This document shows positions 36,277-46,494 of a DNA stretch of 64,000 nt, one piece after another. The notes under the pieces were generated by a model. It saw nothing but the letters and a program-made list of their open reading frames with translations, was not told the origin of the DNA and made no database searches. The stretch comes from Halopseudomonas oceani. Lineage in GTDB: Bacteria > Pseudomonadota > Gammaproteobacteria > Pseudomonadales > Pseudomonadaceae. The stretch spans positions 124,001-188,000 of the forward strand of contig NZ_PPSK01000001.1 of the NCBI RefSeq assembly GCF_002903165.1, written 5' to 3'. Made by a program: the position numbers and the translations under genes. Position 1 is the stretch's first letter; every line of letters begins with the position of its first letter.

Positions 36277-36308
36277 AGCTACAAGCTACAAGCTACAAGC
36301 TACAAGCT
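36277..36308. repeat. Period-7 tandem repeat (AGCTACA), left arm
   Basis: Four and a half copies of AGCTACA (32 bp). With the inverted array at 36341-36372 (32 bp) and a 32-bp spacer it forms a 96-bp imperfect hairpin; the arms differ at six positions. Confidence 0.75.
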
Positions 36309-36340
36309 GAGAACCCCTGCCTCGCCCTGGTTTGGGTTTT

Positions 36341-36372
36341 AGCTTGCGGCTTGAAGCTTGCGGCTTGAAGCT
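36341..36372. repeat. Period-7 tandem repeat (GCTTGCG/GCTTGAA), right arm
   Basis: Alternating GCTTGCG and GCTTGAA units, inverted relative to the 36277-36308 array. Lies between the thiolase stop and the small membrane gene at 36414. Confidence 0.75.
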
Positions 36373-38296: not shown

Positions 38297-38332
38297 GATC
38301 GCCGGGGCACAGCATGCTGTGCCCCGGCGATC
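38297..38332. repeat. Perfect 36-bp palindrome between convergent genes
   Basis: Two perfect 18-bp arms with no loop, GATCGCCGGGGCACAGCA and its complement. It starts nine bases after the thioesterase stop and overlaps the crotonase stop codon by two bases. The centre GGGGCACAGCATGCTGTGCC is closely similar to the elements at 48459-48485 and 48540-48566, so it looks like a dispersed repeat that may double as a terminator. Confidence 0.85.
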
Positions 38333-40671: not shown

Positions 40672-40880
40672 AAAAAGATGCTATTCTATTCGAGGTTAGC
40701 TGTGCAATGATCGAGACAGTTAGCGTGCGCCCCGGTAACAAAACAGCAACAGAGTGTCTGCGTGTCACTGTGCAGAACTCCTGATCGTGCTATCGTTCCG
40801 CGCTCTGACCATAACAATAAAAGACAGCATCAAATCACGTTCGGCCGCACCCACCGATGGGCCACAAGGTATACAACCCA

Positions 40881-41675
40881 ATGAAAGATGAGTTGGAAGC
40901 AGCAGTAAAGGAATCCCCTGCCAAGGACCGCAAGTTCGTCGAAGCACTCTCTCGTGGGTTGGACGTTTTACGCGCATTCAGTCAGGGTTCTGTGGTCATG
41001 GGTAACCAGGATATCGCCCGCATTACCGGCCTGCCCAAGCCCACTGTCTCGCGCATGACCTACACACTGACCAAGCTAGGTTATCTGAGCTATTCCACCC
41101 AACTGGAAAAGTATCAGCTCGACTCCGGTGTGCTGGCCCTCGGTTACGCCTATGTATCCAACCTGCGCGTACGCCAGCTGGCCAAGCCCTACCTCGACGA
41201 GTTCGCACGCAACACCAATACCTCGGTTGGCCTGACCTGTCGCGACCGTCTGTCGATGATCTACGTCGAAAACTGCCGCCCGTCTGAATCCACCTCACTG
41301 CGCATGGATGTGGGTGAGCGTTTGCCGCTGGCCACCACCGCCGCCGGCCGTGCCTACCTCGCTGCCATGAAGGAAGACGAGCGCAGCCATCTGCTCGACG
41401 CCATCAAGGCGCGCAACCCGGATACCTGGCCCGAACTGCAAGCCTCCCTGCAACGCAGCTTCGATGAGTATCAGCAACACGGCTTTTGCCTGTCGCTCGG
41501 CGACTGGGACCGCAACGTCAACGCCGCCGGCGTGCCACTGCATCTGCAGGACGGCAGCCTGATGGTCCTGACCTGTGGTGCACCGTCGTACCTGGTATCC
41601 GAAGAGCGGGTCAAAAACCAGCTCGCCCACCAGCTCGCCATGCTGGCGCGGGATATCGAGCGGCTCGGGGTGTAG
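40881..41675 (+). CDS. IclR-family transcriptional regulator
   Basis: 264 residues. Winged helix-turn-helix at about 17-80 (FVEALSRGLDVLRAF, NQDIARITGLPKPTVSRMTYTL, GYLSYS), then the GAF-like effector domain (LAKPYLDEFARNTNTSVGLTC, GERLPLATTAAGRAYLAAM, AAGVPLHLQDG). Members such as PcaR, PcaU and DcaS control aromatic and dicarboxylate catabolism. It sits between a ligase operon and the fused hydratase/dehydrogenase operon, and GTTTC-type inverted repeats lie in the promoters of both; it is the obvious candidate regulator. ATG 40881 has AAGGT 12 bases upstream; 40857 is the alternative. Confidence 0.88.
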   Translation: MKDELEAAVKESPAKDRKFVEALSRGLDVLRAFSQGSVVMGNQDIARITGLPKPTVSRMTYTLTKLGYLSYSTQLEKYQLDSGVLALGYAYVSNLRVRQLAKPYLDEFARNTNTSVGLTCRDRLSMIYVENCRPSESTSLRMDVGERLPLATTAAGRAYLAAMKEDERSHLLDAIKARNPDTWPELQASLQRSFDEYQQHGFCLSLGDWDRNVNAAGVPLHLQDGSLMVLTCGAPSYLVSEERVKNQLAHQLAMLARDIERLGV

Positions 41676-41682
41676 ACCCAGC

Positions 41683-41702
41683 GGCAAGCTGCAAGCTGCA
41701 AG
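41683..41702. repeat. Period-7 repeat (GCAAGCT) beside terminator
   Basis: Just under three units of GCAAGCT, eight bases after the IclR stop, in the orientation opposite to the array at 41761-41818. Confidence 0.65.
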
Positions 41703-41703
41703 A

Positions 41704-41734
41704 AAAACCCGGCCCTGTGTTAGCCGGGTTTTTT
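41704..41734 (+). terminator. Rho-independent terminator of the iclR gene
   Basis: AAAACCCGGC and GCCGGGTTTT pair across a 9-base loop and are followed by T. Confidence 0.88.
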
Positions 41735-41760
41735 GTGCCCACCTGAAACAGCCTCTCCTT

Positions 41761-41818
41761 CGGTTCGGGGTTCGGGGTTCGCTTGAAGCTTGAAGCTTGA
41801 AGCTTGCGGCTTGCAGCT
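41761..41818. repeat. Period-7 tandem array, eight units
   Basis: Consecutive 7-mers CGGTTCG, GGGTTCG, GGGTTCG, CTTGAAG, CTTGAAG, CTTGAAG, CTTGCGG, CTTGCAG, then CT. The unit sequence drifts but the 7-base period is exact. It abuts the 42-bp palindrome. With the following elements it fills most of the 320-bp gap between iclR and the fused hydratase gene. Confidence 0.75.
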
Positions 41819-41860
41819 GTGATGAATCCAGCGGTCGCTAGCGACCGCTGGATTCATCAC
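41819..41860. repeat. Perfect 42-bp palindrome
   Basis: Two perfect 21-bp arms without any loop; the left arm is GTGATGAATCCAGCGGTCGC plus T, centred on GCTAGC. Flanks do not extend the pairing. There is no T-run, and it starts immediately after the period-7 array. See findings. Confidence 0.9.
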
Positions 41861-41931
41861 CTTAACTAATAAACCGCCATTTCCCCCACTCGGGGCATCG
41901 ACAAGCGGTTTTATTTTTTGTATTTTGCCTA

Positions 41932-41966
41932 GCGAAACGCGGTTTCACTATTTCGCATAGTGAAAC
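41932..41966. promoter_or_regulatory. Compound inverted repeats, candidate IclR operator
   Basis: Two overlapping symmetric elements: GAAAC-GCG-GTTTC (41934-41946) and GTTTCACTAT-TTCGC-ATAGTGAAAC (41942-41966, perfect 10-bp arms with a 5-bp spacer). They lie 30 bp ahead of the fused hydratase start and downstream of an AT-rich TATTTT box, a place where a bound regulator would control the operon. Confidence 0.6.
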
Positions 41967-41995: not shown

Positions 41996-44089
<2,094 letters not shown>

Positions 44090-44152: not shown

Positions 44153-45349
44153 ATGGAAATCCATTACTCCCCCGAGCAGCTCGCCTTCCGCGACGAAGTG
44201 CGTGAATTCCTCAAGCAGGAACTGCCTGCCGACATCGCTGCCAAGGTCAAACTGGGCAAGCACCTGCACAAGGCCGACCACGAGCGTTGGCAGAAAATCC
44301 TGTCCAAGCGCGGCTGGTACGCGCCGGGCTGGCCGGTAGAGCATGGCGGCACCACCTGGGGCCCGATCGAAAAGCACATCTTTGACGAAGAGTCCGCCGC
44401 CTTCGGCGCACCGCGTCTGGTGCCGTTCGGCGTCAACATGGTTGCCCCGGTGATCATCAAGTTCGGTACTGAAGAACAGAAAGCCACCTACCTGCCGCGC
44501 ATCCTCGACGGCACCGACTGGTGGTGTCAGGGCTACTCCGAGCCGGGCGCCGGTTCCGACCTGGCCTCGCTGAAGACCCGTGCCGTACGCGACGGTGACT
44601 ACTACATCGTCAACGGTCAGAAGACCTGGACCACCCTCGGCCAACACGCCAACTGGATCTTCTGTCTGGTGCGTACCGATCCGGAAGCCCAGCAACAACG
44701 CGGTATCTCCTTCCTGCTGATCGACATGGCCACCCCCGGCATCACCGTGCGCCCGATCATCACCCTGGACGGCGACCACGAAGTCAACGAAGTCTTCTTC
44801 GACGACGTCAAGGTGCCGGTTGGCAACCTGGTCGGTGAAGAGAACAAGGGCTGGACCTGCGCCAAGTACCTGCTGACCCACGAGCGTACCGGCCTGGCTG
44901 GTATCGGTGCGTCCAAGGCCGCGCTGACCAACCTCAAGCGTATTGCTTCCAAGCAGCAGAAGAACGGCAAGCCGCTGATCGAAGATGCACTGTTCCGCAG
45001 CCAGATCGCCGAAGTTGAAATGTCGCTGATGGCGGCTGAAATGAGCACCCTGCGCATCGTCGCAGCCGCCTCCGAAGGTGGCGTACCGGGCTCGGAAAGC
45101 TCCATCCTGAAAGTACAGGGCACCGAAATCCGCCAGGCCATCACCCACCTGATGCGCAAGGCACTGGGCCCGTACGCGCTGCCCTTCCTGCCGGAAGAGC
45201 TGGAGCTGGACTTCGACGGCGAAATGCTGGTCGACGACTACGCTGCCTCCCCGGCATCGCAGTACTTCAACATGCGCAAACTGTCGATCTTCGGCGGATC
45301 CAACGAGATCCAGAAGAACATCGTCTCGAAAATGATTCTTGAACTCTGA
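44153..45349 (+). CDS. Acyl-CoA dehydrogenase, large subunit type (PimC-like)
   Basis: 398 residues; alpha,beta-dehydrogenation of an acyl-CoA with electrons passed to ETF. FAD/substrate motif CQGYSEPGAGSDLASLKT, KTWTTLGQHANWIFCLVRTD, and the C-terminal MRKLSIFGGSNEIQKNIVSKMIL. The W-rich middle and the ending differ from short/medium-chain ACADs and match the larger partner of paired dehydrogenases such as PimC. Only 11 bp separate it from a second, shorter ACAD, which suggests a heteromeric enzyme. Confidence 0.9.
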   Translation: MEIHYSPEQLAFRDEVREFLKQELPADIAAKVKLGKHLHKADHERWQKILSKRGWYAPGWPVEHGGTTWGPIEKHIFDEESAAFGAPRLVPFGVNMVAPVIIKFGTEEQKATYLPRILDGTDWWCQGYSEPGAGSDLASLKTRAVRDGDYYIVNGQKTWTTLGQHANWIFCLVRTDPEAQQQRGISFLLIDMATPGITVRPIITLDGDHEVNEVFFDDVKVPVGNLVGEENKGWTCAKYLLTHERTGLAGIGASKAALTNLKRIASKQQKNGKPLIEDALFRSQIAEVEMSLMAAEMSTLRIVAAASEGGVPGSESSILKVQGTEIRQAITHLMRKALGPYALPFLPEELELDFDGEMLVDDYAASPASQYFNMRKLSIFGGSNEIQKNIVSKMILEL

Positions 45350-45360
45350 GGAGGCTGACC

Positions 45361-46494
45361 GTGGATTTCAAACTGACTGAAGAGCAGCAAATGCTCAAAG
45401 AAACCGCTGAACGCCTGGTTCGCGACGTTTACGATTTCGAAAGCCGCAACAAATTCAGCGCCAGCGAAGCCGGTTTCAGCACCGACTTCTGGGCACAGCT
45501 GGGTGAGCTGGGTCTGACCGCCATCCCCTTCTCTGAAGAGCTGGGTGGCTTCGGTGGCACCGGCGTTGAGACCATGCTGATCATGGAACAACTGGGCAAG
45601 GGCATCTGCCTGGAACCCTACATGGAGTCAGTTGTTCTCGCTGGCGGCCTGATCGGCCAGCTGGGCAACGATACCCAGAAGGAAGAACTGCTGGGTGGTA
45701 TCGCTACCGGTGAACTGCAAGCTGCCGTTGCCCTGGACGAGCTGAACAGCCACTACGACCTGGCCAACGTCACCACCACTGCCACCGAGCAGGGCGGCGA
45801 GTGGGTTCTGAATGGTCGCAAGGGCGTCGTCATCGGTGGTCAGACTGCCGGCAAGATTCTGGTCTCTGCCCGCACCGCTGGTGACAGCCGTGACGAGCAA
45901 GGCATCAGCCTGTTCCTGATTGATCCGGCTGCCGCCGGTGTCAGCCGCCGGGTCTACGCCACCGTTGACGGTCGCAAGGCCTGTGAACTGTTCCTCGACA
46001 ACGCCAAGGGCGAGCTGCTGGGCGAAGCCGGTAAGGCCTATGACGCCATCCGCTACCAGAGCGGTCGCGCCATCGCCGCCCTGTGTGCCGAAGCTGTCGG
46101 TGCCATGCGCACCGCCTGCGACCTGACCCTGGAATACCTGAAGACCCGCAAGCAGTTCGGCGTGCCGATCGGTAAGTTCCAGGTTCTGCAGCACCGCATG
46201 GTCGACATGATCAGCGAACTGGAGCGCGCCACCTCCATGGCGATCCTGGCAGCCTGCCTGGCTGATGACGAAGACAGCGCCGAGCGCAGCGCCAAGCTGG
46301 CCGCCGCCAAGTTTGTCATCAACCGCGCTGGCCGCTACGTGGCCGAGCAGTGCATCCAGCTGCATGGCGGTATCGCCATGACCTGGGAGTACAACGGTGC
46401 CCACTACGCCAAGCGCTTGGTCATGATCAGCCACCAGTTCGGTGATGACGACCACCACCTGGAAGCCTACGCCGCTCAACTGAGCGCAGCGTAA
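45361..46494 (+). CDS. Acyl-CoA dehydrogenase, small subunit type (PimD-like)
   Basis: 377 residues, GTG start with GAGGAGG upstream. It keeps the ACAD fold ([72 protein letters not shown]) but its FAD/substrate loop is weak: where the partner has YSEPGAGSD this one reads [14 protein letters not shown]. That asymmetry is typical of the second subunit of heterodimeric ACADs (PimC/PimD, actinobacterial steroid enzymes). Terminated by a strong hairpin before etfB. Confidence 0.9.
   Translation: [377 protein letters not shown]

Follow-up and report, generated by a model that had tools for sequence, protein, structure and literature searches.

The perfect 42-bp palindrome at positions 41819-41860 of the window, the whole 64,000-nucleotide stretch of the Halopseudomonas oceani genome that was analysed, is a real and inherited local feature. 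We tentatively read it as a clade-specific cis-regulatory site, with a putative binder, at the upstream edge of the promoter of a catabolic operon. This reading was rated first since a dyad protein site combined with a homogenised middle explains the frozen ends and the complementary middles of the palindrome together; it was held somewhat short of an even call because, among other points, one species of the clade has lost the outer arms. The palindrome would thus mark a probable regulatory site in an operon of a fatty- or dicarboxylic-acid pathway. Its copies also form a natural series, in which one locus in eight species has remained mostly paired while its middle was rewritten. Such a series would allow the shares of template switching and of structural selection in bacterial covariation to be weighed, a caveat for RNA-structure inference.

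The palindrome is intergenic, has no strand assigned to it, and consists of two arms of 21 nt (41819-41839 and 41840-41860) that are 100% complementary with 0 nt between them; the T before it and the C after it do not pair, and both its exactness and its unextended flanks were as the preliminary description had given them. By arithmetic, about 1e-6 palindromes of this kind are expected in a random sequence of 4.16 Mb. A census of perfect inverted repeats (arms no shorter than 12, loop no longer than 10) in the window and 40 further stretches, i.e., 862,000 bases or about 21% of the genome, returned 30 repeats, the longest of which is the palindrome. Next in length came a repeat with arms of 20 and a loop of 2, followed by two with arms of 18, one without a loop (window 38297-38332) and one with a loop of 3. 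Three of the 30 repeats were spacerless, with arms of 13, 18 and, in the palindrome, 21. The neighbours of 16 of the 30 repeats were called by a crude ORF script, and at least four of these 16 (window 38297, 28236 and 58278; L176 13019) are flanked by convergent genes, a setting typical of bidirectional terminators. Unlike them, the palindrome lies between two same-strand genes, just upstream of a predicted promoter. The second spacerless perfect palindrome of the window (38297-38332, 36 bp, arms of 18) lies between a crotonase gene and a thioesterase-like gene convergent with it, and it takes in the final bases of the crotonase frame. The usual instability of long palindromes, which had been raised beforehand, was a weak point of that description: in E. 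coli, strong instability affects palindromes much longer than 100 bp, and G002 (presumably H. aestusnigri), which is another species, keeps an identical copy. On account of this copy an assembly artefact was rejected and the suspicion of a collapsed or chimeric assembly is answered; the window copy is located inside a 449-kb contig.

Upstream of the palindrome lies a gene for an IclR-family regulator (40857..41675, + strand; PcaR/PcaU/PobR is its best NCBIfam model and scores 136 bits where the cut-off is 285). Behind this gene there is an intrinsic terminator (41703..41738, + strand; stem 41703-41713/41723-41733, then a T-run), which is real, as had been claimed, with 85 bases from its stem to the palindrome, and which the stem search listed only in L009-L013 of the nine clade loci. 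The operon downstream begins with a fused enoyl-CoA hydratase / 3-hydroxyacyl-CoA dehydrogenase that is FadJ/FadB-like (41996..44089, + strand; below the curated cut-off), followed by a PimC-like acyl-CoA dehydrogenase (44153-45349; best model pimeloyl-CoA dehydrogenase large subunit) and a PimD-like one (45361-46494; best model pimeloyl-CoA dehydrogenase small subunit), both below the cut-off. Judged by these genes, the operon may serve fatty- or dicarboxylic-acid breakdown. In front of it a sigma-70 promoter, TCGACA-N17-TATTTT, was predicted from its consensus match (41898..41926, + strand). The operator-like repeats TTTTGCCTAGCGAAA and TTTCGCATAGTGAAA (41923..41965, + strand), sites of a kind that IclR-family proteins bind, overlap this promoter and then extend beyond it. 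These repeats and the period-7 array on the other side of the palindrome were present as first described. The predicted promoter and the repeats are kept in 30 aligned genus loci; among 148 family genomes the promoter region matched in 19, all of them Halopseudomonas, and in none outside the genus.

Between the palindrome and the promoter, conservation pointed to a further box, ATCACCTTAACTAAT (ATCA-N7-TRAT; 41856..41870, + strand), which has 5 bp in common with the right end of the palindrome. It was found in 21 of the 30 genus loci at a near-fixed distance before the predicted promoter, in nine clade loci (G008 included) together with the palindrome and in 12 loci without it; in the other nine (L020, L025-L027, L031-L035) it was missing or unrecognisable. 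LysR-type activators use dyad sites upstream of sigma-70 promoters, near -65, with T-N11-A and ATC-N9-GAT boxes. In the form ATCA-N7-TGAT the box fits the T-N11-A pattern, and the start implied by the predicted promoter lies about 70 bp downstream of its centre; in H. oceani and its nearest relatives, however, the second half of the box has weakened to TAAT. The neighbouring box may resemble a LysR-type site; the palindrome, at 42 bp, greatly exceeds sites of this kind in length. As an element of a wider regulon the box was rejected, its 21-nt pattern with up to three mismatches giving only this copy in the genome.

In H. oceani the palindrome is single-copy. The 21-nt arm, with up to three mismatches allowed, was not found elsewhere in the window, and a search of the genome with the half pattern at the same tolerance gave no extra palindromes, the approximately chance-level three-mismatch matches forming none. 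A 421-bp query matched in some part in all 37 genus genomes and had no match in plasmids. The palindrome pattern was present in eight of the 37 Halopseudomonas genomes, once each and always at the iclR-hydratase locus; conservation at this locus only had been set beforehand as the sign of a regulatory site, and this is how the comparison came out. The absence of the palindrome from relatives, which had been held against such a site, applies in part, as 29 of the 37 genomes are without the exact pattern, including G008 with its shortened form. In 398 genomes of the family, a pattern with the outer 9 nt exact and 16-30 nt between them matched in nine (0 or 1 match per genome), namely the eight genus carriers and G168. 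In the latter, the outer 9 nt are present, the inner stem is partial and differs in sequence, and the 3-kb locus has no hydratase neighbour; the match reads as chance or convergence. A Saprospirales MAG (L100, 5834-5875) also has a perfect palindrome of 42 bp that shares the outer 9 nt and differs in its inner sequence, which is probably chance or convergence as well.

Thirty of the 37 genus loci (L009-L038) were read base by base, and the gene order iclR-intergenic region-hydratase was kept in all 30; the other seven genomes were covered by the exact pattern only, which is blind to copies with changed outer arms. The perfect-stem search omitted the palindrome in L011, L015 and L016, where it was recovered by eye and by later pairing counts. 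In a tree of 30 rows that was based on iclR and part of the hydratase gene, G008 groups with the eight carriers in one nine-species clade (support 100/99). G008 is a close sister of the carrier G023 (806/819 identical bases in iclR, 739/753 in the first 753 bases of the hydratase gene and 138/138 downstream of the palindrome); it is without the outer arms and keeps a perfect palindrome of the inner arms, 10 nt each. The simplest reading of this distribution would be one origin, vertical inheritance and one erosion, that in G008. The interval between iclR and the palindrome is almost wholly different in these two sisters, with GGCTGGA-type heptads in G008 (L014) and CAAGC-type heptads in G023 (L011).

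The rate of change differed sharply along the palindrome. Fitch counts on the tree of iclR and partial hydratase, in which a polytomy was handled by an ad hoc rule, gave for the eight carriers one change in the 10 columns of the outer left segment GTGATGAATC (41819..41828, + strand; 0.10 per column), none in the 10 columns of the outer right segment GATTCATCAC (41851..41860, + strand; 0.00) and one in the eight columns of the centre CGCTAGCG (41836..41843, no strand assigned; 0.12). Both middle segments (41829..41835 and 41844..41850, + strand) are hypervariable, with 17 changes in seven columns each (2.43 and 2.43 per column), and their pairing was mostly kept. The middles thus change about 20 times faster than the outer arms and the centre, and also faster than any bin downstream (at most 20 columns wide; 0.20-1.2 changes per column, from four changes in the -10 bin to 24), the spacer bin that starts 20 columns downstream having 1.1 changes per column. 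The ends of the palindrome are as slow in the eight carriers as the promoter core, and the outer arms and centre, with G008 left out, change more slowly than the neighbouring non-coding DNA, as is expected of a conserved site. When G008 was included, the counts rose to 10 in the outer left segment (1.0 per column), two in the outer right (0.2) and 18 and 19 in the middles, which weighs against a constraint on the outer arms.

Under the regulatory reading, the palindrome would have arisen once, in the ancestor of the nine-species clade, when the CATCAC of a pre-existing promoter box was mirrored leftwards. A dyad-reading protein would hold the outer arms and the centre and could extend or double the adjacent activator-like box, while the symmetry of the middle would not be selected as sequence and may be restored by intrastrand template switching in replication. 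Measured from the start that the predicted -10 implies, the palindrome is centred about 93 bp upstream, and its spacing to the box and to the predicted promoter is near-constant. Of the options that had been offered at first, a protein-binding site is favoured, though not proven, by the 0-1 changes per segment in the outer arms and centre and by the 5 bp common with the conserved box. Against it stands G008, which has no outer arms despite its 138/138 identity to G023 downstream, so at least one species can do without these arms. Moreover, the outer arms could be the base of a hairpin that is obliged to pair with the constrained CATCAC, and the box is itself drawn from conservation, with its gaps in 9/30 loci and no second copy in the genome at up to three mismatches.

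The strongest competitor, which we consider rather unlikely, is an RNA hairpin behind iclR that ends or protects transcripts or insulates them from the downstream operon, terminator-like but without a U-tract. The bases 41819-41860 fold into a 19-bp stem with a CTAG loop, and the predicted stem is strong on both strands (-36.6 kcal/mol, z -7.35, for 41810-41880 on +; -38.5 kcal/mol, z -7.98, for 41805-41870 on -). Its pairing survives changes on both sides, and the stem search listed no upstream terminator in G017, G018 and G010; in three palindrome-less loci, L028, L029 and L038, the interval from iclR to the box contains other hairpins (z -2.5, -9.7 and -3.3). Like intrinsic terminators, the palindrome is a strong stem-loop behind a gene; unlike them, it has no T-run, CTTAACTA after the stem having three T in eight bases as had rightly been observed, and it is preceded by a proper terminator, already present in five of the eight carriers, and followed by a promoter. 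A scanner called no intrinsic terminator at the palindrome, and it also missed the upstream one, which has a 9-nt loop where the scanner allows at most 8. An Rfam search gave no family above threshold, the two microRNA-precursor models with E values of 0.27 and 0.93 being far below their gathering scores. The G-U wobbles in the carriers are balanced, three on + (two in G017, one in G010) and three on - (G023, G001 and G011), and hence favour no transcript strand. Between iclR and the box, z was above -2 in 12 of the 25 scored loci, even with shuffles scanned at a coarser step, a bias in favour of structure, so a hairpin is not generally required there; L031-L035 were too short upstream to be scored, and the best hairpin scored for L017 was a stretch other than the palindrome. 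Finally, a stem alone does not need a frozen outer sequence.

The pairing itself is mostly kept. The eight carriers retain 18-21 of 21 Watson-Crick pairs, G017 with a 1-nt insertion, and across the nine sequences that include G008, eight of them distinct, 87.5% of the cells pair. With G008 included, seven of 19 pairs changed on both sides, compared with 3.4 on average in shuffles, of which 2/500 were as high; one of the seven (columns 10/34) depends on G008. The covariation score was 0.271 against 0.085 (sd 0.024) in shuffles, a control inflated by related rows, with 0/500 as high, and slid controls reached at most 0.065. Three pairs (13/32, 16/29 and 17/28) changed on both sides on the single branch of G000 and G002, whose gene branch length is 0.039. 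Changes that keep complementarity on both arms and cluster on single branches are those of a template-switch quasipalindrome, and the concerted change of the middle would fit template switching; a stretch imported from another strain would look alike. According to the accessible parts of PMC7202029 and PMC8794818, template switching makes quasipalindromes more perfect, one arm being copied into the other. Within the same parts, the quasipalindrome hotspots of E. coli thyA and lacZ (PMC7202029) and the hairpins made by template switching (PMC8794818) likewise show multi-base changes that preserve pairs and need no G-U intermediate. The palindrome differs from these systems, so far as those texts go, in that the variation is between species at one promoter, with the ends and centre frozen and the middle rewritten, and that the mechanism is drawn from the pattern.

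Template switching could also account for the palindrome on its own, as a neutral relic: an inverted copy made by one switch and kept near-perfect by later ones, with no function. We hold this to be unlikely. The fast, concerted and mostly pair-preserving change of the middle is the footprint expected from the accessible text of PMC8794818 and PMC7202029, and in G008 the outer arms were lost while 138 downstream bases stayed unchanged. Nevertheless, the outer left arm and the GATTC of the right arm, both outside the box, show one and no change, respectively, in eight species. Neutral switching leaves these frozen ends unexplained, as it equalises arms and does not freeze them, and it is here that the reading as a protein site accounts for more.

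It is improbable, in our judgement, that symmetry itself is the selected property, with fixed outer half-sites and centre being read as a cruciform or hairpin and the middle freely rewritten; if this were true, the site would be conserved in form and not in sequence. The cruciform or RNA structure that had been offered as an option gains from the pairing that is kept as the middle turns over, and loses from the fact that template switching can give the same without structural selection. More specifically, supercoiling could drive a cruciform whose extrusion would melt the box in its ATCA half and thereby couple the expression of the operon to supercoiling. The spacerless symmetry, the single-strand DNA fold of -23.4 kcal/mol and the 5 bp that the right arm has in common with the box are in line with this, but imperfect copies (18-20 of 21 Watson-Crick pairs) are tolerated in six of the eight carriers, as is the insertion in G017, and we regard it as very improbable. 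A mobile palindromic element (REP, REPIN or MITE-like), another of the original options, is hardly credible for a palindrome that is single-copy, never matches more than once per genome in the 398 genomes of the family and is confined to one clade, even though it adjoins a dispersed heptad-array element on its left. REP sequences, as presented in the accessible part of PMC12306157, are likewise short extragenic palindromes, which the 42-bp intergenic palindrome is too; the classes REP, REPIN and MITE were rejected for it since they are multi-copy.

The period-7 array to the left of the palindrome is half of an inverted pair, with nnCAAGC units on the left (41676..41703, - strand) and GCTTGnn units on the right (41781..41818, + strand), the latter abutting the palindrome. 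Paired arrays were also seen at window 36280-36369. In 862 kb of the H. oceani genome there are 28 heptad arrays, compared with one in the reversed sequence, and all nine close pairs have the orientation (nnCAAGC)n - core - (GCTTGnn)n, with cores of 18-105 nt that differ between the copies. A strict pair pattern matched in 26 of 119 family genomes and in seven of 19 genera, with 0 matches in the backward control; G075 and G076 had the most, up to 72 and 61, overlapping registers being counted more than once. These paired arrays are a dispersed, mostly intergenic element family. Perfect stems of at least 8 were found in 5/56 array flanks compared with 11/1000 random windows; that arrays adjoin hairpins is suggestive only, because most arrays lie between genes, and hairpins are commoner there in any case. 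In the open-licence PMC literature, in which sequences can be found only where they are printed as such, nothing was found on this palindrome or on GCTTGnn arrays, and for Pseudomonadaceae no description of the GCTTGnn unit was found, the accessible parts of PMC3116915 and PMC2718517 mentioning no heptamers. Paired inverted heptad arrays are already known as a kind from Xanthomonas, where, according to the accessible part of PMC4692102, GGGAATC-type heptamer arrays form 70 and 75 convergent inverted pairs in two genomes; the paired arrangement is alike and the unit is another one. At the place of the palindrome, the intergenic region of L029 has a 27-pair stem with a 7-nt loop that contains GGGGTCAGAGTCAATTG. 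We take this motif to be that of dispersed repeats. In L018 and L019, the loci of two sister species, several CATTGCGAGCC / GGCAATCCA-type repeats, presumably REP-like, lie between iclR and the box.
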